From assembly GCF_021246445.1 (NCBI RefSeq), contig NZ_JAJQXW010000001.1, forward strand, positions 806,001 through 870,000: a stretch of 64,000 nt of DNA, given 5' to 3'. The stretch's first letter is position 1, and each line of letters starts with the position of its first letter. The DNA comes from Rhabdothermincola salaria. Its GTDB lineage: Bacteria > Actinomycetota > Acidimicrobiia > Acidimicrobiales > Acidimicrobilacustridaceae. The notes beneath the pieces were generated by a model that saw only the letters and a program-made list of their open reading frames with translations, was not told the origin of the DNA and made no database searches. Positions 1,773 through 11,339 of the stretch are shown piece by piece. The position numbers and the translations under genes are program-made.

Positions 1773-2242
1773 CCGTCCCGATCGGCACCGACGAACGCCT
1801 CGCCGCCATCCAGGACGCGCTGGGCGTGGCGGCCCGCCGGGCCAAGGACTTCGCCCTGCACGAGGCTCTCGGCCAGCGGGTCGGCTACAGCCTCGAAGGC
1901 CCGTACTACGCCACCCTTGCACGCCTGGGACTGGGTGGGCCCTGCACCGTCTCACAGCTCGCCGAGGGCCTCGGCCTCGAGCTGTCCACCATCTCGCGAC
2001 GCGTGAAGGCGCTCGAGGAACGTGGCCTCGTCACCCGCGCCATCGACACCGACGACCGCCGCATCTCCCACCTCGACCTGACCCCCGCCGGTCGGGAGCT
2101 GTTCGAGGCGCTCTCGGCCAGCTGGCGCGAGATGCTCGCCGAGGTGCTCACCGACTGGCCGGCGTCCGACGTCGACGACCTGGCCCGACTCTTCTCCCGC
2201 TTCGCGCACGACCTCGAGTCGTTCGCAGAAAGGCAGCGCTGA
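1769..2242 (+). CDS. MarR-family transcriptional regulator
   Basis: A 157-aa winged-helix regulator of the MarR family. The recognition helix is the stretch around LELSTISRRVKALEERGLV, followed by the wing DTDDRRISHLDLT at about residues 88-100. The start is GTG in a GTGA overlap with the SDR stop. MarR proteins usually repress their own operon and release DNA on binding a phenolic or acyl ligand. Being embedded in the operon, it is a candidate pathway-specific sensor. No obvious operator is visible in the short sequence before position 37, so its target is undetermined. Confidence 0.87.
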   Translation: MTVPIGTDERLAAIQDALGVAARRAKDFALHEALGQRVGYSLEGPYYATLARLGLGGPCTVSQLAEGLGLELSTISRRVKALEERGLVTRAIDTDDRRISHLDLTPAGRELFEALSASWREMLAEVLTDWPASDVDDLARLFSRFAHDLESFAERQR

Positions 2243-3954
2243 TGTACGACCTGTTGCTCACCGGAGGGCTGGTGGTCGATGGCACGGGGGTGCCCGGCCG
2301 TCTCGCCGACGTGGCCGTCGAGGGTGATCGCATCGTGGCCGTGGGCCGCCTGCGGGGCCAGGCGGCCCGGCGCACGATCGACTGCGAGGGCCTCGTCGTG
2401 GCTCCCGGCGTCGTCGACGCCCACACCCACTACGACCCCCAGATCACCTGGGATCCGGTGTGCGACACCGCCGCGCTGCACGGGGTCACCACCGTCGCCG
2501 CCGGCAACTGCGGCTTCTCCGTGGCGCCGTGTCGATCCGACGACCACGACTACCTGGCCCAGGTGTTCGCCCGGGTGGAGGGGATGGACCTCGACTCGCT
2601 GGGCCACGTCGGCTGGGAGTTCGAGACGTTCGAGGAGTTCCTCGCCACCCGCCCCGGCAAGCTGGGCGTGAACCTCGGCATGTACGTGGGCCACTCCGCG
2701 GTGCGGCGCTGGGTGATGGGCGACGCCGCCTACGAGCGAGAGGCCACGCCCGACGAGATCTCCACCATGGCCGCCATGATCGACGCCGCCATGCACGCCG
2801 GCGCCCTCGGCCTGTCGTCGTCGCACGCCCCCACTCACCTCGACATGGCCGACCGACCAGTGCCCAGCCGGTTGTCGTCGCGTGACGAGATGCGCGCCCT
2901 CGCCGACGCCCAGGGGCGCCACGGGCGCGGGTCGATCGCCTACGCCCCCGAGAGCGCAGTGGAGGGGATCGACTCCGCCGACCGGGACTTCCTCATCGAG
3001 CTGGCCCAGCGCGGCGGTGTGCCCGTCATCACCCAGGGCCTCGGTGGACGCTCCAAGGTCGATGCCCCGACCAAGACGTGGCAGGAGTCGCGGGCGTTCC
3101 TCGATCGCTCGGCCGCCCTCGGTGCTCCGGTGTACTCGCTGCTGATGACCCGGCCCCTCAACGGCCCGTTCGATCTCATCGACGGAACGACCCGCTACGA
3201 AGGCGTGCCTCTCTGGAACGAGCTCATGGCGCTGGACGTGGCCACCAAGCGGACCTGGCTCGAGGACCCGACCCGACGCGACGCCCTGCGCCGGGCCATC
3301 GACGAACCCAACCGGGATCCGGCCCGGGGCTCCACCCTGCCGCCGCCGTTCTGGGAGAGCCTGCGCGTCTCGGACGTGCGCAGTGCCGAGAACGAACCGC
3401 ACCTGGGTCGGTCGATGTCGGCTCTGGCCGCGGACAGCGGCAAGCACCCGGCCGACGTCTTCTTCGACATCGCCCTGGCCGACGACCTGGCCACCGTCTT
3501 CCACTGGTCCAACGAGACCCCGGCGTGGCGCGAACTGCTCAAGGACGTCCAGAAGCACCCCCAGATGATCGTCGGCGTCTCCGACGGCGGCGCCCACCTC
3601 GACCGCGACGACGGCCAGGAGTGGTCCACCCACTTCCTGTCGACGTGGTGGAAGCAGGAGCGGGTGTGGCGCCTGGAGGAGGCGATCCGGCGCATCACCG
3701 CCGTGCCCGCCGCCATCCTGGGGCTGAACGACCGGGGCGTCGCCGCCGCCGGGTGGGCCGCCGACCTCTTCGTCTTCGACCCCGAGACGGTCGACGTGGG
3801 CACCTGCCGCGAGGAAGCGGACCGGGTGACGGGCGCGGCACGCTTCCGGGCCGTCCCCCAGGGCATCAAGGCCACCATCACCAACGGCACCATCACCGTG
3901 GAGGACGGCGAGATCACCGGCGCCGCCCCCGGTGAGGTGGTGCGGCCCCGATGA
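2242..3954 (+). CDS. D-aminoacylase-type amidohydrolase (COG3653 group)
   Basis: A 570-aa amidohydrolase-superfamily enzyme of the N-acyl-D-amino-acid deacylase type. The N-terminal small beta domain is followed by the metal motif HxH (H61, H63), a GNCG motif with the metal-bridging cysteine C90, and late in the chain SDGGAH with the catalytic aspartate. The last about 60 residues return to the beta domain. Characterised relatives remove acyl groups from D-amino acids or hydrolyse cyclic amides, but this branch is substrate-diverse. It overlaps the MarR stop by one base (TGATG). A paralogue with the same motifs lies at 16799-18478. Confidence 0.85.
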   Translation: MYDLLLTGGLVVDGTGVPGRLADVAVEGDRIVAVGRLRGQAARRTIDCEGLVVAPGVVDAHTHYDPQITWDPVCDTAALHGVTTVAAGNCGFSVAPCRSDDHDYLAQVFARVEGMDLDSLGHVGWEFETFEEFLATRPGKLGVNLGMYVGHSAVRRWVMGDAAYEREATPDEISTMAAMIDAAMHAGALGLSSSHAPTHLDMADRPVPSRLSSRDEMRALADAQGRHGRGSIAYAPESAVEGIDSADRDFLIELAQRGGVPVITQGLGGRSKVDAPTKTWQESRAFLDRSAALGAPVYSLLMTRPLNGPFDLIDGTTRYEGVPLWNELMALDVATKRTWLEDPTRRDALRRAIDEPNRDPARGSTLPPPFWESLRVSDVRSAENEPHLGRSMSALAADSGKHPADVFFDIALADDLATVFHWSNETPAWRELLKDVQKHPQMIVGVSDGGAHLDRDDGQEWSTHFLSTWWKQERVWRLEEAIRRITAVPAAILGLNDRGVAAAGWAADLFVFDPETVDVGTCREEADRVTGAARFRAVPQGIKATITNGTITVEDGEITGAAPGEVVRPR

Positions 3955-4637
3955 GCATCGCCAGCACCGCCGACGTCATCGCCCACGACGGCGGCGACCT
4001 CGCCCCACCCCTCGTGCTGTCCACCGCCGAGGCGACGGCCCTCGCCGACGTCCTGGGCGGCCCGGTCGTCACGGTGCCGGTCCCGTCGGGCGGGGGTGAG
4101 GGCTGGGCGTGGGCCGACGACCTCGACGCCTGGCGTGGCCAGCACGTCACCGGCGAGCGAGCCGAACGGGTCGTCGTCGCCGTGTGGGCGCCCGTCGCCG
4201 CCCCCCGTCCGGTCGTCGACGTGGACCTGGCCGCGTGGATCGACGAAGCCGAGGTTCCCCTGGCGGCGTGGTGCGCGGCACTCGGCGTGGCGGCCTCCAG
4301 GGTCGCCGACAGCGGCACCATCGTGGCCGTCGCCGAGCGGCCGGCCCCGCTGGACTGCGCCGGTCACGGCGCGGCCGCGGCGGTGGCCGACGGCGTCGAG
4401 GCGCTCGTGCGCTCCCTCGCCCGATCCGAGGGGCCCCGGGGCGTGCGGGTCAACCTGGTCACCACCCCGACCCGGCTGGCGCCCGACCACCCGGTGGCCC
4501 CGGCGCCGTCCCTGGCCAGCCATCCCGGCACCATCGAGGGGGAGGTCGCCGGGGCGGTCACCATGCTGCTCGGTTCGGGAACCGGCGGGGTCACCGGCAC
4601 CGTCGTGCACGCCGACTGCGGGCGGTCGTGGCGATGA
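3951..4637 (+). CDS. Degenerate SDR-like protein lacking cofactor and catalytic motifs
   Basis: A 228-aa protein whose second half follows an SDR fold: the helix VEALVRSLARSE, then GVRVNLVTTP, then the terminal GGVTGTVVHADCG, which correspond to the post-catalytic helix, the IRVNxVxPG strand and the TGxxxxxDGG end of classical SDRs. The N-terminal glycine-rich cofactor motif is absent. At the place of YxxxK the chain reads AAAVA, so both catalytic Tyr and Lys are missing. It is joined by ATGA overlaps to the D-aminoacylase upstream and to a complete SDR downstream. I infer a non-catalytic partner subunit; a decaying gene is the alternative, although the frame is fully open. Confidence 0.7.
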   Translation: MSIASTADVIAHDGGDLAPPLVLSTAEATALADVLGGPVVTVPVPSGGGEGWAWADDLDAWRGQHVTGERAERVVVAVWAPVAAPRPVVDVDLAAWIDEAEVPLAAWCAALGVAASRVADSGTIVAVAERPAPLDCAGHGAAAAVADGVEALVRSLARSEGPRGVRVNLVTTPTRLAPDHPVAPAPSLASHPGTIEGEVAGAVTMLLGSGTGGVTGTVVHADCGRSWR

Positions 4638-5392
4638 GCGCCGACACGGTGGTGCTCGTCACCGGGGCCAGCGGTGGGGTGGGCCGGGGCATCGCCCTGG
4701 CGTGCGGCCAGGCGGGATGGACGGTCTGGATCGCCGCCCGGCGCGCCGACGCGGCGGCCGCCGTGGCCGACGAGGTCGACCGGGCCGGCGGGCACGGCCG
4801 ATCGATCGTCTGCGACGTCGCCGACCCCGGGTCCGTGCGAGCCGCCGTCGCCGCCGTCGTCGAGCGCGACGGGCGCCTCGACGGGGTGGTGCACAACGCC
4901 ACCAGCGGGCTCTCGCCGGTGCCGTCCGTGCTCGCCACGCTGTCCGCCGCCGACCTGCACAGCCACGTGAGCGTCTCGTTGCGCGGCACCTACCTGCTGG
5001 CCGTGGCGGCCCGGCCCCACCTCGCGGCCAGCCGGGGTGCCTACGTCGTGCTCACCTCGGAGGCCGGGTTCGAGGGCAAGGCCAAGCTGCCGGCCTACGC
5101 GGCGGTGAAGGCCGCCCAACGGGGCCTGGCCCGCACCCTCGCCCGGGAGTGGGGGGCCGACGGCATCCGGGTCAACTGCCTGGCGCCGCTGGCCGCCACC
5201 CCGGCCATGGAGGCGGCGTTCGCCAACGAACCGGCCATGGCCGAGCGGGTGCTCGGCCGCAACCCCCTCGGCCGCCTGGGGGATGCCACCGACGACATCG
5301 GGCCGGTGGCCCGCTTCCTGCTCGGGCCGGAATCGCGCTTCGTCACCGGCAACACCCTCATGGCCGACGGGGCCAGCTGTCCCATCACCTGA
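4634..5392 (+). CDS. SDR-family oxidoreductase (partner of the degenerate SDR)
   Basis: A 252-aa classical SDR. It has the cofactor loop GASGGVG (residues 11-17), HNATSG in place of NNAG (88-92), the serine region T141-S142, and Y155/K159 in YAAVK. The C-terminus carries the TGNTLMADGG-like segment. R36/R37 after the second strand would fit NADP(H). It starts within the ATGA shared with the degenerate SDR stop and closes the six-gene operon; a short gap follows to the convergent DUF2254 gene. The tight coupling to a related but motif-less protein suggests a hetero-oligomeric dehydrogenase. Confidence 0.87.
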   Translation: MSADTVVLVTGASGGVGRGIALACGQAGWTVWIAARRADAAAAVADEVDRAGGHGRSIVCDVADPGSVRAAVAAVVERDGRLDGVVHNATSGLSPVPSVLATLSAADLHSHVSVSLRGTYLLAVAARPHLAASRGAYVVLTSEAGFEGKAKLPAYAAVKAAQRGLARTLAREWGADGIRVNCLAPLAATPAMEAAFANEPAMAERVLGRNPLGRLGDATDDIGPVARFLLGPESRFVTGNTLMADGASCPIT

Positions 5393-5439: not shown

Positions 5440-6924
5440 TCAGGGCACCTGCGTACCCTCCTTGGCCACGGCCGAGGGCCGAGTGGCGAGCTGACGGGCC
5501 AGCTGCTGGCGCTCGACCGACGGGAGGTCGTCGAGGCGGGCGCTCAGCAGCTGGCGGTGCCGCTGCACCGCGTTGAGCCCCTCGTCGTCGGCGCAACGAC
5601 GGGTGAGGTCGGCCAGGTCGTCGAGCAGGACCGAGAGGCGGGCGTGGACCTGGATGGAGTCGGCCCCCCAGTGGCGCACCTCGTCGAGGGCCAGGTCGAG
5701 CAGGTCCGGCCACCGCCAGGGAGGGATCACCAAGCGGAGGGTCCCGGCGTCGTCCGGGTAGCCCCCGCAGGGATAGGAGGACCCGTGGGCGAGGCGGAGC
5801 AGATCGTGGAGCTGGTCGATGCACTGCACGGCCGTGGTGGGATCGTTGACGCCTGGCGACAGCGCCCGCTCGGCGATGTCGACGAGTTGGCGGAACCCGA
5901 ACGCCGGATCCTGGCGCATGCTGCGTTCGCTGTCCTGGCCGATGAGGTGCTCGAAGCCGTGGAGGTCGTCACCGCTCACGCCGGTCAGGCCCTCGGGAGC
6001 GTTGGGGTCGCCGATCACCCGGCGCACCACCAGCAAGGGACCGTCGCTCGGCACGAAGTCGCCGACGCGCACCGCCAGGCACAGCGTCAGGCCCCGCTCG
6101 GCGGCCAGGGCGACCAGGTTCCCGACGTCGAGGTCGGTGACCGCGCCGGGGCCGGAGGCGACCAGCAACCCGACCGGGGCCCGTCGCGTGTCGGAGTCGT
6201 CGCGTCGGGACTCGACGCTGCCGTCCTCGATCGGCTTGGTCCCGCGGCGGCGCAGCAGACCCACCTGGCCGGGCGGTACGGCTTCGTCGGAGCGCAGCAA
6301 CCGGGTGAGGTCGGTGGGCAGCACGTCCACGGTGCCCGGCTCCTCTCGCCCCTGGGCGATGGAGTGCCGGGTCTCCTTGGCGATCCGCTCGATGATGGTG
6401 ACGGCCCGCAGCGACTGGGTGGCGTGGTGGATGAACTCGATGAACATCAGCACGCTGGCCAGCATCAGCACGAACGCCACGGTGATGGTGACGTCGGGGA
6501 CCAGGCCCTCGCCGTCGGGGCCGCTGTCGCGCACCGCCCGCAGGGCCATCAGCGAGAACGTGAAGGTGGCCAGGAACACCGCGAGGGTGGCCTGGTTCAC
6601 GCGATCGCGCAGGAAGTTGCTCAGCGCCCGGGGGGAGAACTGGTTGGAGGTGAGCTGGAGGGCGACGATGGTGATCGAGAAGACCAGACCGGCGATGGTG
6701 ATGGTGGCCCCGGCGATGGCGCTGAGGATGGCGCGGGCCGCGTCGGCGTCACCGCCGAAGGCCCACCCGAAGGCGTCGTCGGACGCGTCGGTGTCGAGGC
6801 GGACGAGGAACTCGGCGGCGATGCCGGCGGCGATGACGCCCAGCAACGGGATGGTGAGGTAGGAGTTGGCGATCCGCGAGCGGAGCCGGATCAGGTCGAG
6901 ACGCGCACCTCGGGGAGCTGCCAT
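5440..6924 (-). CDS. DUF2254 family membrane protein
   Basis: A 494-aa protein matching DUF2254. Two hydrophobic segments near the N-terminus (around SYLTIPLLGVIAAGI and ATITIAGLVFSITIVAL) are followed by the conserved LTSNQFSPRALSNF stretch, two further membrane helices, and a long soluble C-terminal region with the family's RQLVDIAERALSPGVNDPTTA motif. The function of the family is unknown; members sit in the cytoplasmic membrane. The start is the ATG at 6924, since codons further upstream in frame run into the aldolase gene. It lies 53 bases after the aldolase stop on the same strand and may be the end of that operon or independent. Confidence 0.82.
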   Translation of the reverse strand: MAAPRGARLDLIRLRSRIANSYLTIPLLGVIAAGIAAEFLVRLDTDASDDAFGWAFGGDADAARAILSAIAGATITIAGLVFSITIVALQLTSNQFSPRALSNFLRDRVNQATLAVFLATFTFSLMALRAVRDSGPDGEGLVPDVTITVAFVLMLASVLMFIEFIHHATQSLRAVTIIERIAKETRHSIAQGREEPGTVDVLPTDLTRLLRSDEAVPPGQVGLLRRRGTKPIEDGSVESRRDDSDTRRAPVGLLVASGPGAVTDLDVGNLVALAAERGLTLCLAVRVGDFVPSDGPLLVVRRVIGDPNAPEGLTGVSGDDLHGFEHLIGQDSERSMRQDPAFGFRQLVDIAERALSPGVNDPTTAVQCIDQLHDLLRLAHGSSYPCGGYPDDAGTLRLVIPPWRWPDLLDLALDEVRHWGADSIQVHARLSVLLDDLADLTRRCADDEGLNAVQRHRQLLSARLDDLPSVERQQLARQLATRPSAVAKEGTQVP

Positions 6925-6977
6925 GGGCGACCATCTTCCCCGAGTCGCGCCACGTCCGCACCCTTCGTCGGCGAGCC

Positions 6978-7676
6978 TCAGTCGTCGAGGAGGGCGAAGA
7001 GGTCGGGGTCGGTGCCGCGTATGCGGTCGAGGTTGGCCCGCCACACCTGGGGCAGGTAGTGCTTGCGGTACATGGCCTTGCCACCGAGCACCTCGGCCTC
7101 GGCGATCTCGGTGCCCCCGACGGCGACGCACTCGAGGTGGTACTGCGCCGCCTTCTCGAGGGTGATGGCCTCGATGACCGCGTTCTCGACCGAGTCCGAC
7201 GCCACGATGGCGCCGTGGTTCTTCATGAGCACCACCCGCTTGTCCCCGAGCGCCTCCACCACGTCGGTGTGGGCCTTGATCCCGTCGTCGAAGTACGTCG
7301 CCTGATCGTCGTGGAAGAGCACGGAGAGCACGTTGTACATGCCGACGGTCTGGCCCTCGATCGACGAGAGCACCGAGATGTGGTGGCTGTGGACGTGCAC
7401 GACCGCATTCACGTCGGGGCGGGTGCGGTAGATGAGGGCGTGGAAGTTCACCGCCGGTGACAGCTCGTGGTGGCCGACGAGCGGGTTGAGGTCGAAGTCG
7501 AGCTTCACGACCCCGTCGGGCACGGTCTGGTCGAGGTACTCGAAGCCGGTGACCCAGAACCCGTCGTCTTCCTCGGCGCGGGCGCTGACGTGACCGCCGA
7601 CGTTCGAGTCGCAGCCCTCGCGGTAGAGGATGCGACGGCCGGCGGCGATGCGGAAGCGGATGTCGTCGATGTCCAT
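6978..7676 (-). CDS. Class II aldolase/adducin-family protein
   Basis: A 232-aa class II aldolase/adducin-fold protein. The zinc-binding histidines H94 and H96 (AVVHVHSHH) and the later KNHGAIV segment are present, as is an SNVGGHVSAR stretch equivalent to GN-S-R phosphate-loop motifs. In L-fuculose-1-phosphate aldolase a catalytic Glu lies four residues before a conserved His (SSExxxH); here that segment reads SPAVNFH with Ala75 at the Glu position, as in the adducin-like branch, so it may not be a sugar-phosphate aldolase. It starts 5 bases after the amidohydrolase stop, indicating co-transcription. Confidence 0.8.
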   Translation of the reverse strand: MDIDDIRFRIAAGRRILYREGCDSNVGGHVSARAEEDDGFWVTGFEYLDQTVPDGVVKLDFDLNPLVGHHELSPAVNFHALIYRTRPDVNAVVHVHSHHISVLSSIEGQTVGMYNVLSVLFHDDQATYFDDGIKAHTDVVEALGDKRVVLMKNHGAIVASDSVENAVIEAITLEKAAQYHLECVAVGGTEIAEAEVLGGKAMYRKHYLPQVWRANLDRIRGTDPDLFALLDD

Positions 7677-7681
7677 GATGC

Positions 7682-8941
7682 TCAGAAGGCCTCCGGGTCG
7701 GCCTGCACGGCCTCGGGGACGGGGTGGTGGAAGAGCTTCGAGGCGTTCTCCCACGTGATCTTGCGGATCTCGTCGGTGGGGAAGTGGCCGATCTGCTCGT
7801 GCAGCACCTTCTGGGTGTCGGGCCAGGTGCCGTCCTGGTGGGGGTAGTCCGACTCGAGCAGGAGGTGGTCGATGCCGATGCGGTGGCGCAGCTCCAGCCC
7901 CGATGGGTCGTCGATGGTGCAGAACCAGAAGTTGCGGGCCAGCACCTCGCGAGGGGTGAGGTCGATGTCGGTCCAGGTGCCGTACATCTCGGCGTAGCGC
8001 CCGACGTGGTCGAGGCGGTCCATGAGACCGGGCACCCATCCGATGCCACCTTCGGACAGGCAGATCTTGATGTCGGGGTACTTCACCGGGATCTTGGAGT
8101 AGAGCCAGTCGACGGCGGCGAACATGGCCCAGCCGAAGAACAGCACGCCGATGGTGTCCGACGGGGCGTCCGAGGAGGTCATGGGCGCACTCGACGAGGA
8201 GCCCACGTGCAGGCAGATGACGGTCTCGGTCTCCTCGCAGGCGGCCATGAACGGGTCCCAGTACCCGGTGTGCAGCGACGGCAGGCCGAGACGCTCGGGG
8301 AGCTCCGGGAAGGTGACGGCGTGGAAGCCGCGGGCCGCGTTGGCCCGGATCTCGGCCGCGGCCTCATCGGGGTCGAGCAGCCAGGGGAGCTGCACCGGGA
8401 TGATGCGGTCGGGGTAGGGCCCGGCCCAGGCCTCGAGGTGCCAGTCGTTGGAGGCTCGTACGACGGCACGAGCCAGCTCCGGGTCGCTGACGCCGAGCTG
8501 GTAGCGCTGGCCGGCGAAGCCCGCCAGCGAGGAGGGGAAGTTGAGCGAGGCGTACACGCCGTTGAGGTCCATGTCGTGGATGCGGGCGTCGATGTCGTAG
8601 GCACCCCTGCGCATCTCGTCGAACCGGGCCGGCTCGAAGCTGAGCTCGCTGCGGGGTCGCCCCACCACGGCGTTCAGCCCGACCTTGTACTGGCGCTGGC
8701 CGTCGTAGAGCCAGTACTCCATGCCCTCGTCGTCCACCTCGACCCGGGGGGCGAGGTCGGCGTACGCGCCCTTCACCCGCCCCTCGAACGTGTTCGGCGG
8801 TTCGACGAGGTGGTCGTCGACGGAGATGAAGGTGAAGTGGCGGGGCTGGCGCTCCGGGTCGGGGAGGAACGTGGGGGTCTCCGGCCTGGAGGTGGCGAAG
8901 AAGCCTTCGCGGGCCTCCATGTCGTCGAAGTTGATGCTCAC
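7682..8941 (-). CDS. Amidohydrolase-2 family protein (COG2159)
   Basis: A 419-aa TIM-barrel amidohydrolase of the ACMSD/LigW-like group. Visible are the N-terminal SVDDHLVEP (metal-site His), the mid-chain CLHVGSSS histidine, [11 protein letters not shown] and the C-terminal [14 protein letters not shown] with the catalytic aspartate. Relatives carry out non-oxidative decarboxylation or hydrolysis of aromatic or cyclic acids. I chose the GTG at 8941 because a GGAAGG ribosome site lies just upstream and it does not overlap the preceding gene; an in-frame ATG at 9004 would overlap that gene by 32 bases. A GCATGATGC near-palindrome lies upstream (8975-8989). Confidence 0.83.
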
Positions 8942-8972: not shown

Positions 8973-11339
8973 TCATTGCATGATGCGATCTTGGCAGCCA
9001 GCACCGGCGAGGGCGCTCCACACCCGCTCGGGGGTGAGCGGCAGGTCGATGTGCTCGACGCCGAGGTGGGCCACCGCGTCGATCACCGCGTTCTGCACGG
9101 CCACGGTGGCCCCGATGGCCCCGGCCTGGCCGATGCCCTTGGCCCCGAGCGGGTTGACCGGCGACGACAGGTCGATCGTGGTGGCCTCGATGCTCGGCAG
9201 CTCCGGCGCCGATGGCACCGCGTAGTCGAGGAGCGTGGTGCTGAGAGGCGTCCCGTCCTCGTCGTGCTGCACGGCCTCGAAGAGCGCCTGGCCGATGCCC
9301 TGCACGATGCCGCCATGCTGTTGGCCGGCCACCAGCGTCGGGTGCACCACCCGGCCGCAGTCGTCGACGGCGATGAAGCGCACGAGCTCCACGTGGCCGG
9401 TCTCGGCATCGACCTCCACCACCGCCGCGTGGCACCCCTCGGGGAAGGTCGGCCCCGGCTGCGAGGACTCCACCGCAGCACCGAGGTGGCCTTCGGGCAC
9501 CACCGAGCGCACGTCGTCGGGGAGGGAGGGATCGGCCGCCGCCCTCGCCACCCGCGCCCAGCTCACCTCCGCCGACGGCGAACCGACCACGGCGAGGGTT
9601 CCCTCCGAGGTCACCACGATGTCGGCGGGTGCGGCCTCGAGGAGGTGGGCGGCGACGGCCCGGGCCTGGTCGAGGACCTGGCGCGCGGCGCCGTCGACCG
9701 CGGCGCCGGCCAGCATCAGCGAACGGGCCGATCCGGTGCCCTCGCCGGTGGGGACCTCGTCGGTGTCGCCGCCGGGCAGCTCGACGCTCGACGCCGCGAG
9801 GCCGAGGACCGCCGAGATCAGCACCGCCCACGTGGTGCGATGGCCCTGGCCCTGGTCGTTGGCCCCGTCACGGACCAGCACCCGCACACCATCGGGATCC
9901 GACGCATCGGGATCGATCCGGATGGAGGCGTACTCGCTCGGCCGGTTCATCGGCGTGCAGTCCAGCCACATGGCGATGCCGATGCCGAGGTGGCGGGTCC
10001 CCGTCCCGGCCCGGCGCTGCGCCTGTCGGGCGCGCAGCGCGTCGTAGTCGATGCGGGCGCACGCCTCGTCGAGGCAGCGTCGTGGGTCGCCGCTGTCGTA
10101 GGTCATGCCGGTCGGGGTGGTGTACGGGTAGTCCCCGACCTCCAGCAGGTTGCGGCGGCGCAGCTCCACCGGGTCGATGGCCAGGCGACGGGCGGCAACG
10201 TCGACGAGGCGCTCGAGCATCGCGGTGGCCTCCGGTCGACCTGCTCCTCGGTAGGCGCCGACCGGCGACGTGGTGGTGGCGGCGGCCCGGCCGGCGGCCC
10301 GCACCAGGGGGATCCGGTAGGGACCCGACGCCATCAGGCCGGTGGCATTCGGGATCACGGCACCCACCATGGGGTAGGCGCCGGCGTCGGCCAGGACGTC
10401 CACGTCGAGGCCGAGGAAGCCGCCGTCGGCGTCGACGGCCAGCCGGGCCCGTTGGCGCTGGCCCCGGCCCTGCGGCATCGACTGGAGGTTCTCGGTGCGC
10501 GTCTGCACCCACTGGACGGGGCGATCGAGGGTGCGGGCGCACGCGGCCACCGCCACGGCCTCGGCGGAGGGCTCGAACTTCCCGCCGAACCCGCCGCCGA
10601 CCAGGGGAGCGACCACCCTCACCAGGGCCGGATCGAGCCCGAGGGACGAGGCGATGGCGTCGCGCACGTGGTGCACCCGCTGGGTGGAGGCCCAGACGAG
10701 CAGGCGGTCGCCGTCCGGGACGGCGAGCACGCCGTCGGGTTCCATGGGTGCCGGTGCGACCCGCTGGTTGACGAAGCGTCCCTCGACCACGTGGGGAGCG
10801 TCGGCGCACGGGTCGTCGGCCGTCCCGAAGCGCCCCTCGAACGCCACGTTGGTGCCGAGCCCGGGGAACAGCACCGTCCCGGAGCCGCTCGCGGCCGTGG
10901 CCGCGCACGATGCCTCGAGGTCGGTGACGGGCGGGAGGGGGTCGATGTCGACCACCACCATCTCGGCGGCGTCGACCGCCGCCACCCGCGACTCGGCCAC
11001 GACCACGGCCACCGCCTCGCCGGCGAAGTGCACCGTGTCGGTGGCCAGCGGCGGCCGGGCGAACGCCGGCGCCAACATGGCGTGGCCCGGGACCGGCTGC
11101 ACGCCGAGGTCCGACGCGGTCAGCACGGCCACCACCCCGGGTGCCTCGAGTGCGTCGGCGACATCGACGGCGGCGAGGTGGCCGTGGGCGTCATGGGAGC
11201 GCACGAACACGGCGTGGAGGGGAGCACCCGTGGCCCCCGCGGGGGCGAGGTCGTCGAGGTAGTGGCCCTGGCCCCGCAGCAGGGCCGGGTCCTCGAGACG
11301 GAGAGGCCCGCGGGGCGAGTCGTTCGGAGGAGCGCCCAT
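8973..11339 (-). CDS. CoxL-like molybdopterin hydroxylase large subunit, stand-alone
   Basis: A 788-aa xanthine-dehydrogenase/aldehyde-oxidase family molybdopterin subunit. It shows the cofactor motif [10 protein letters not shown] and the AYRGAGR active-site loop that marks form II CoxL-like proteins rather than true CO dehydrogenase (AYxCSFR). Near the C-terminus the segment [10 protein letters not shown] aligns with the family's KGxGEAGxIG, so the catalytic Glu is Gln738 (codon CAG, 9126-9128). No FAD (CoxM) or 2Fe-2S (CoxS) subunit gene lies nearby. The start overlaps the GntR stop (TGATG), so the two are co-transcribed. Hydroxylation of a carboxylic or N-heteroaromatic substrate would be the family role, if it is active. 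Confidence 0.85.

Follow-up and report, generated by a model that had tools for sequence, protein, structure and literature searches.

What does a degenerate short-chain dehydrogenase/reductase (SDR) do when its gene lies directly before the gene of an intact one? The question arises from a stretch of 64,000 nucleotides of Rhabdothermincola salaria (hereafter the window; contig NZ_JAJQXW010000001.1, positions 806,001 to 870,000). Here an original prediction, made from the letters alone, had proposed that a 228-residue degenerate SDR (the pseudo-SDR; positions 3951 to 4637, plus strand) and a 252-residue classical SDR (the partner; 4634 to 5392, plus strand) may form a heteromeric dehydrogenase. 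SDRs are a very large enzyme family whose members are usually annotated and expressed singly. On the basis of sequence comparisons, we consider it likely that the two genes make one heteromeric SDR that joins a live partner with a pseudoenzyme subunit; its assembly, activity, and substrate are what we infer.

Motifs of the two proteins in the window

Both genes are open frames on the plus strand, and the ATGA in which the stop of the first overlaps the start of the second was found as predicted at 4634 to 4637. The features claimed for the shorter protein were also recovered. It carries the C-terminal SDR pattern (RSLARSE, GVRVNLV, and TGTVVHADCG) and matches the Pfam domain adh_short_C2 with 40.7 bits (cut-off 27), the best stretch being residues 84 to 224. 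It is without the glycine motif, and AAAVA stands at the place of YxxxK. Glu129 (codon 4335 to 4337) occupies the place of the catalytic Ser, and the codons at 4374 to 4391 encode Ala142 to Ala146, at the places of Tyr to Lys, followed by Asp147. The partner, with 165.6 bits in the Pfam scan, had been described as a complete SDR with intact motifs. This holds for the TGASGGVGRG motif, for Ser142 (codon 5057 to 5059), and for Tyr155-x-x-x-Lys159 (codons 5096 to 5110) but not for the Asn of the catalytic tetrad, where Ser115 is found. Some classical SDRs are without the tetrad Asn (Asn-Ser-Tyr-Lys).

Pairing of the two genes across an SDR family

With the 228-residue protein as the query, a match at an E value of 1e-8 or better was found in 7 of 198 genomes of the order, a match was found in 7 of 37 genomes of the family (own genome included in both counts), and among named genomes two loci matched. 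Orthologues of the window pseudo-SDR, at 43 to 56% identity, occur at seven other loci, each adjoining an orthologous SDR, which in the seven close relatives comes next and is 63 to 77% identical to the partner. A more distant group (G127, G201, and G211) has the same gene order, pseudo-SDR then SDR. In G093, an enoyl-coenzyme A (CoA) hydratase frame has the pseudo-SDR as its C-terminal part, and the SDR follows. The frame read at L021 (7767 to 9374, minus strand) has 535 residues, with the hydratase (PF00378) in front, the pseudo-SDR behind it, and the partner SDR next.

The search was then turned to the partner. In the 198 order genomes, a profile of partner SDRs (A3) had 35 matches at an E value of 1e-75 or better, spread over 26 genomes. 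Scored with a wider partner profile of 38 rows (A6), the 38 partners of a first set reach 336 to 405 bits and 37 new partners 337 to 391 bits; other SDRs reach at most 227 bits among the listed places outside the order in 296 phylum genomes. Judged by these profile scores, the partner SDRs form a sharply bounded family. The same boundary appears within the genome of the window, where 55 SDRs match A6, three of them at 366 to 393 bits and the next at 219. Each of the three (C1:810640, which is the window pair, C1:5296, and C2:803897) has its own pseudo-SDR.

Pairing was read in several collections of loci. Each of 31 loci (L035 to L065, the window among them; L041 runs into a contig end, and part of L056 is masked) has a same-strand upstream pseudo-SDR match at a gap of 0 to 119 bases, the weakest scoring 30 bits (L053) and 21 bits (L058). 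In the first set, which comprises 38 loci with wider DNA, the window counted, a same-strand upstream SDR-like gene is present in 38 of 38, 37 times as a called gene and once, at L080 (the same place as L053), by six-frame search. A second set of 37 places outside the first was drawn from a class sample (two of the places, in G364 and G534, were also seen in the other class sample), and here the pseudo-SDR is adjacent in 34. Pairing cannot be read at L152 and L187, which start at the end of a contig, and L175 (G256:C8) is the sole separated case seen, with about 1.2 kb of other DNA between the SDR and a pseudo-SDR upstream on its strand. By comparison, among 44 control SDRs, of which 27 belong to the window genome and 17 to other genomes, a single one is preceded by an SDR-like gene, and that gene has its YxxxK intact; seven family members included in the control run gave 7 of 7. 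The pseudo gene is present in every testable relative, and adjacent in all but one; the check on its absence in relatives, proposed with the original prediction, thus did not refute it. The orthologues at seven other loci, with the near-universal pairing in the two larger sets, indicate that the pair is more than chance. L080 and L089 (G062 and G003) have reduced, weakly matching pseudo-SDRs, the latter called at 112 residues; the reduction is extreme and the pairing is kept.

The junction seen in the window is common. Of 37 loci read, 34 have ATGA or GTGA at the stop of the pseudo-SDR gene, and by called starts 24 of 37 pairs overlap, 17 of them by four bases. A stop codon inside the G364 pseudo-SDR match was dismissed, as it is that gene's own terminal stop.

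Partner-family matches occur in 46 of 395 genomes of a class sample (58 places, 336 to 393 bits), and the class samples, of 395 genomes each, contain family members in further families of the window's class. No family member was found outside the window's order in two phylum samples (396 and 296 genomes); these phylum and class searches score some candidates per genome, and misses are possible. Plasmid records gave short DNA matches alone, at 60 to 80% in eight records, and no protein match at the strict limits of 1e-40 and 1e-25. A search of the open literature on SDR pseudoenzymes and such pairs, which left subscription papers mostly outside, found no description of the pair.

Residues lost and retained

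Places 142, 155, 159, 160, and 162 are given in the numbering of the partner. Readable pseudo-SDRs number 36 of 37 in the first set (L085 is masked) and 34 in the second, 70 in total. In the A6 alignment, Gly11, Gly15, Gly17, Ser142, Tyr155, and Lys159 are invariant among the 38 partner rows, and Ser-Tyr-Lys is kept in 75 of 75 partners (38/38 and 37/37 in the two sets). The catalytic Lys is kept in none of the 70 pseudo-SDRs. The other losses are uneven: Pro, Glu, or Asp stands at the Ser place in all 36 of the first set, Pro alone accounts for 28/36 and 29/34 in the two sets, and the second set keeps Ser in 3/34, Tyr in 13/34, and Lys in 0/34. In the window clade, the cofactor glycine motif and its loop are lost. 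Thus the catalytic Lys is gone from every pseudo-SDR read, while some still have the cofactor motif.

Beside the lost Lys, at place 160, an Asp or Glu, in the window Asp147, is found in 70 of 70 pseudo-SDRs (36/36 and 34/34), as opposed to Ala or Gly in the first-set partners. We considered this acid as a trait unique to the family and rejected the idea, since Glu is found there in 12 of 44 control SDRs. The partners have peculiarities of their own. The tetrad Asn is absent from 75 of 75, with Ser, Ala, Thr, or Gly in its place, compared with Asn in 28 of 44 control SDRs, and Gln162 is present in 36/38 and 32/37 partners compared with 0/44 controls. In 33 of 38 partners, Arg37 forms part of an Arg-Arg after strand 2, which, with general knowledge of SDRs, suggests that the partner prefers NADP.

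Predicted fold of the pseudo-SDR

An SDR fold for the product of 3951 to 4637 was another point on which the original prediction could have failed, and modeling does return this fold. The usable model (predicted local distance difference test score, pLDDT, 78.8; predicted template modeling score 0.81; N-terminal half trimmed) was built from an alignment of ten sequences and may lean to the SDR fold because seven of the ten are intact SDRs. Structure comparison of this model gave a best Z of 18.3, at 3.2 Å over 199 residues. With Foldseek, the best match is a chain of a human heterotetrameric ketoacyl reductase (E 2.2e-9), and chain A of PDB entry 7pcs (7pcs_A of BbsCD) comes at rank 11 (E 2.4e-8); the first ranks score closely, and 7pcs_A scores similarly to the best. 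A profile of 34 pseudo-SDRs (A5) matches FabG structures over positions 4 to 225 of 227 with a best E value of 2.7e-32, so the relationship to SDRs is supported independently of any structure model. For the window clade alone, the last two thirds of the profile (A1) align with SDR structures at an E value of 1.2e-8. Taken together, the protein is predicted to have a Rossmann-type SDR fold.

Mirrored trees and selection

For phylogeny, 38 partners, 34 pseudo-SDRs, and 24 other SDRs were placed in one tree, built by a quick method and rooted at the midpoint. Partners and pseudo-SDRs each form one side of a branch, with support of 99 and 94 in the Shimodaira-Hasegawa-like approximate likelihood ratio test. 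Across 34 loci each, partner and pseudo-SDR tree distances correlate with r = 0.85, a value reached in 0 of 10000 permutations, and the two trees have 24 of 31 splits in common, where relabeling gives a mean of 0.2 and at most 3. Six genomes carry two or three pairs; in both trees, the paralogues of such a genome sit next to the same or to closely related neighbors.

The pseudo gene is under constraint. Its ratio of nonsynonymous to synonymous substitution rates (dN/dS) is below 1 in all 13 comparisons and lies between 0.07 and 0.35 in the eleven closer ones, although these ratios are rough because some dS values exceed 1. Within the pseudo-SDR, entropy is lowest in strands 1 and 6, helix F, and the C-terminal strand. 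Helix E, helix F, and the C-terminal strand are among the elements of the usual SDR interface. The matching trees and the purifying selection are consistent with a pseudo-SDR that is kept as a subunit alongside its partner. The original proposal of a heteromeric dehydrogenase is thus supported in part.

Proposed enzyme and alternative explanations

In the related bacteria examined, the gene for the dead protein lies almost constantly just upstream of that for an intact SDR of one kind, and this suggests that the dead protein is a working subunit of a two-part enzyme. Dead and live proteins that are kept together, with a mirrored history and under selection, are the pattern an obligate heteromer would leave. 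Our current hypothesis is an enzyme, probably a 2+2 tetramer of catalytic and pseudo subunits, in which 4634 to 5392 would encode the NAD(P)-dependent catalytic subunit and 3951 to 4637 a pseudoenzyme subunit without Ser, Tyr, and Lys and, in the window, also without the dinucleotide loop. The pseudo subunit most likely replaces one partner in the contacts by which SDRs usually form oligomers, mainly those of helix F, and/or gives its C-terminal tail to the neighboring subunit. By either route, it would stabilize and shape the catalytic subunit. The ATGA overlap may help produce both subunits in step. In a catabolic pathway, the enzyme would probably oxidize a hydroxyl group (or reduce a keto group), with a hydroxyacyl-CoA as a possible substrate, as in BbsCD, and paralogous pairs for different substrates.

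Several observations weigh against this reading. Three pseudo-SDRs (L168, L169, and L173) retain both Ser and Tyr, none of them Lys, and all three glycines of the cofactor motif are retained in 3/37 and 2/34 (L082, L087, L092, L153, and L186), so that the losses differ in degree. A model built from three pseudo-SDRs alone was poor (pLDDT 42, with weak methyltransferase matches) and was discarded. Mirrored trees are also expected from vertical descent alone, though the paralogous pairs of one genome sort alike. The pseudo-SDR tree distances are 2.4 times those of the partners, dN/dS of the pseudo gene is above that of the partner in 13 of 13 comparisons, and for the two comparisons of greatest divergence it rises to 0.41 and 0.53. 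Helix E, an element of the usual interface, shows some of the highest variability within the pseudo-SDR. Finally, no single substrate is indicated because the neighboring genes differ by locus.

The same data allow other explanations. In a rather unlikely variant of the two-subunit enzyme, the pairs would be an old, obligate two-gene SDR family with a divided active site, in which the dead subunit contributes, by its acid and its C-terminal tail, a structural or proton-relay part across the interface and neither protein works alone; this leans on the tetrad Asn given up in every partner seen and on the invariant acid in the dead subunit. That acid, together with the frequent Pro in place of Ser, could also mean that the degenerate protein is itself an active enzyme with moved catalytic residues, performing with the SDR two steps of a pathway. 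However, the window clade has no cofactor loop, and a Glu beside the Lys place is by itself no catalytic sign because 12 of 44 ordinary SDRs have one there, and we give this explanation little credence. Improbable, too, is an independent role of the degenerate protein in ligand binding or regulation, with cotranscription as its only tie to the SDR. Such a role would suit the five pseudo-SDRs that retain the glycine motif and the member fused to enoyl-CoA hydratase, though there the SDR still follows. It would not account for a pairing that is confined to one SDR family, persists across different operons, and comes with a stop/start overlap in most pairs, nor for finding among the best conserved elements strands 1 and 6 together with two parts of the interface, helix F and the C-terminal strand.

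A decaying tandem duplicate without function would evolve faster than its partner, lose its motifs to differing degrees, and leave some very short or weak copies, and all three are observed (the last at L080 and L089). Yet the pseudo gene is present at all testable loci, its tree mirrors that of the partner, dN/dS stays below 1 throughout, and the acid beside the lost Lys stands in 70 of 70, which makes decay hardly credible. If the two-subunit reading is right, a whole branch of SDRs depends on paired genes, and a partner produced by itself may seem inactive. The graded losses (of Lys always, of Ser, Tyr, and the glycines in part of the members, and of length in some) would then be a natural series on what a pseudoenzyme subunit needs, in a system with pairing in nearly every checkable copy.

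Genome context and possible substrates

The pair in the window follows, within one operon, a same-strand run of genes that begins, inside the window, with a putative cyclase (PF04199; 37 to 990, plus strand) and continues on the plus strand with a second intact SDR (987 to 1772), which belongs to another branch and groups with other SDRs in the tree, a MarR-family regulator (1769 to 2242), and a 570-residue Amidohydro_3 protein (2242 to 3954) that overlaps the pseudo-SDR gene. The setting had been given as cyclase, MarR, and D-aminoacylase; the cyclase and MarR stand, and D-aminoacylase is merely a likely name for the protein that Pfam assigns to Amidohydro_3. A homologue of the latter lies directly upstream of the pair at L017, L018, L027, and L028. 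Downstream in the window (5440 to 8941), class II aldolase and amidohydrolase genes are inverted, with a 494-residue gene between them and the pair, unlike L017, where such genes come after the pair in the same direction. The large subunit of a molybdopterin-binding dehydrogenase is encoded further on (8973 to 11339, minus strand).

At other loci, the genes around the pairs differ and include luciferase-like proteins, acyl-CoA dehydrogenase, P450, CoA-transferase, thiolase, and amidohydrolases. One common substrate for the family was rejected on account of this variation. Acyl-CoA dehydrogenases and an aldehyde dehydrogenase near L020, a thiolase near L085, and the fused hydratase of L021 suggest, by gene neighborhood, a CoA-ester substrate for some members, with no such hint in the window operon. 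Downstream of the pair at L022, L069, and L071 (L068 is similar) lies a conserved run of a luciferase-like protein, a protein of 267 to 269 residues, two NAD-epimerase-like proteins, and an SDR; the L022 copy of the 267- to 269-residue protein is without a Pfam match.

Comparison with known systems

The precedent named in the original prediction is BbsC/BbsD. PDB entry 7pcs is BbsCD, the (alpha-hydroxybenzyl)succinyl-CoA dehydrogenase of anaerobic toluene degradation, and we take its chain A to be BbsC because chain B is named BbsD. BbsCD is a heterotetrameric SDR with inactive pseudoenzyme subunits according to the title of von Horsten et al. (2021), as cited in PMC10818641. It combines dead and live SDR subunits, as proposed here for the window pair; adjacent genes for a dead and an intact SDR, kept together, mark this kind of enzyme and are what the pairs have. 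The precedent stands as a likely mode of action. In a PDB search with A6, BbsD scores 172.8 bits at rank 38, under many other SDRs and far below the 336 to 405 bits of the family, which by sequence places the partner outside the BbsD family. BbsC is not among the best 60 of 402 PDB matches for A5 (the lowest of the 60 has 83.2 bits) or among the best 60 of 135 matches for A1, and 7pcs is not among the best 50 entries in the VIA-align comparison of the pseudo-SDR model. The setting of the bbs operon, as described in PMC10818641, includes CoA-transferase, acyl-CoA dehydrogenase, hydratase, and thiolase. The window operon, with cyclase, SDR, MarR, and Amidohydro_3 on the same strand, is unlike it; genes like those of the bbs operon adjoin some other family members, not the window pair.

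Another SDR heterotetramer is the human mitochondrial ketoacyl reductase, presumably HSD17B8 with CBR4 in PDB entries 4cql and 4cqm. Both of its subunits bind cofactor. Unlike this enzyme, the pair described here has one subunit without catalytic residues. FabG, a homotetramer with an intact catalytic tetrad, represents the classical SDRs whose structures the pseudo-SDR profile matches over nearly its full length. Malonyl-CoA reductase of Roseiflexus has catalytic SDR domains and non-catalytic ones, termed auxiliary in PMC10470521, and joins them in a single polypeptide, while here two separate, overlapping genes are found. The best reading, by analogy, is that the pair would work like BbsCD but with a catalytic subunit from outside the sequence family of BbsD.

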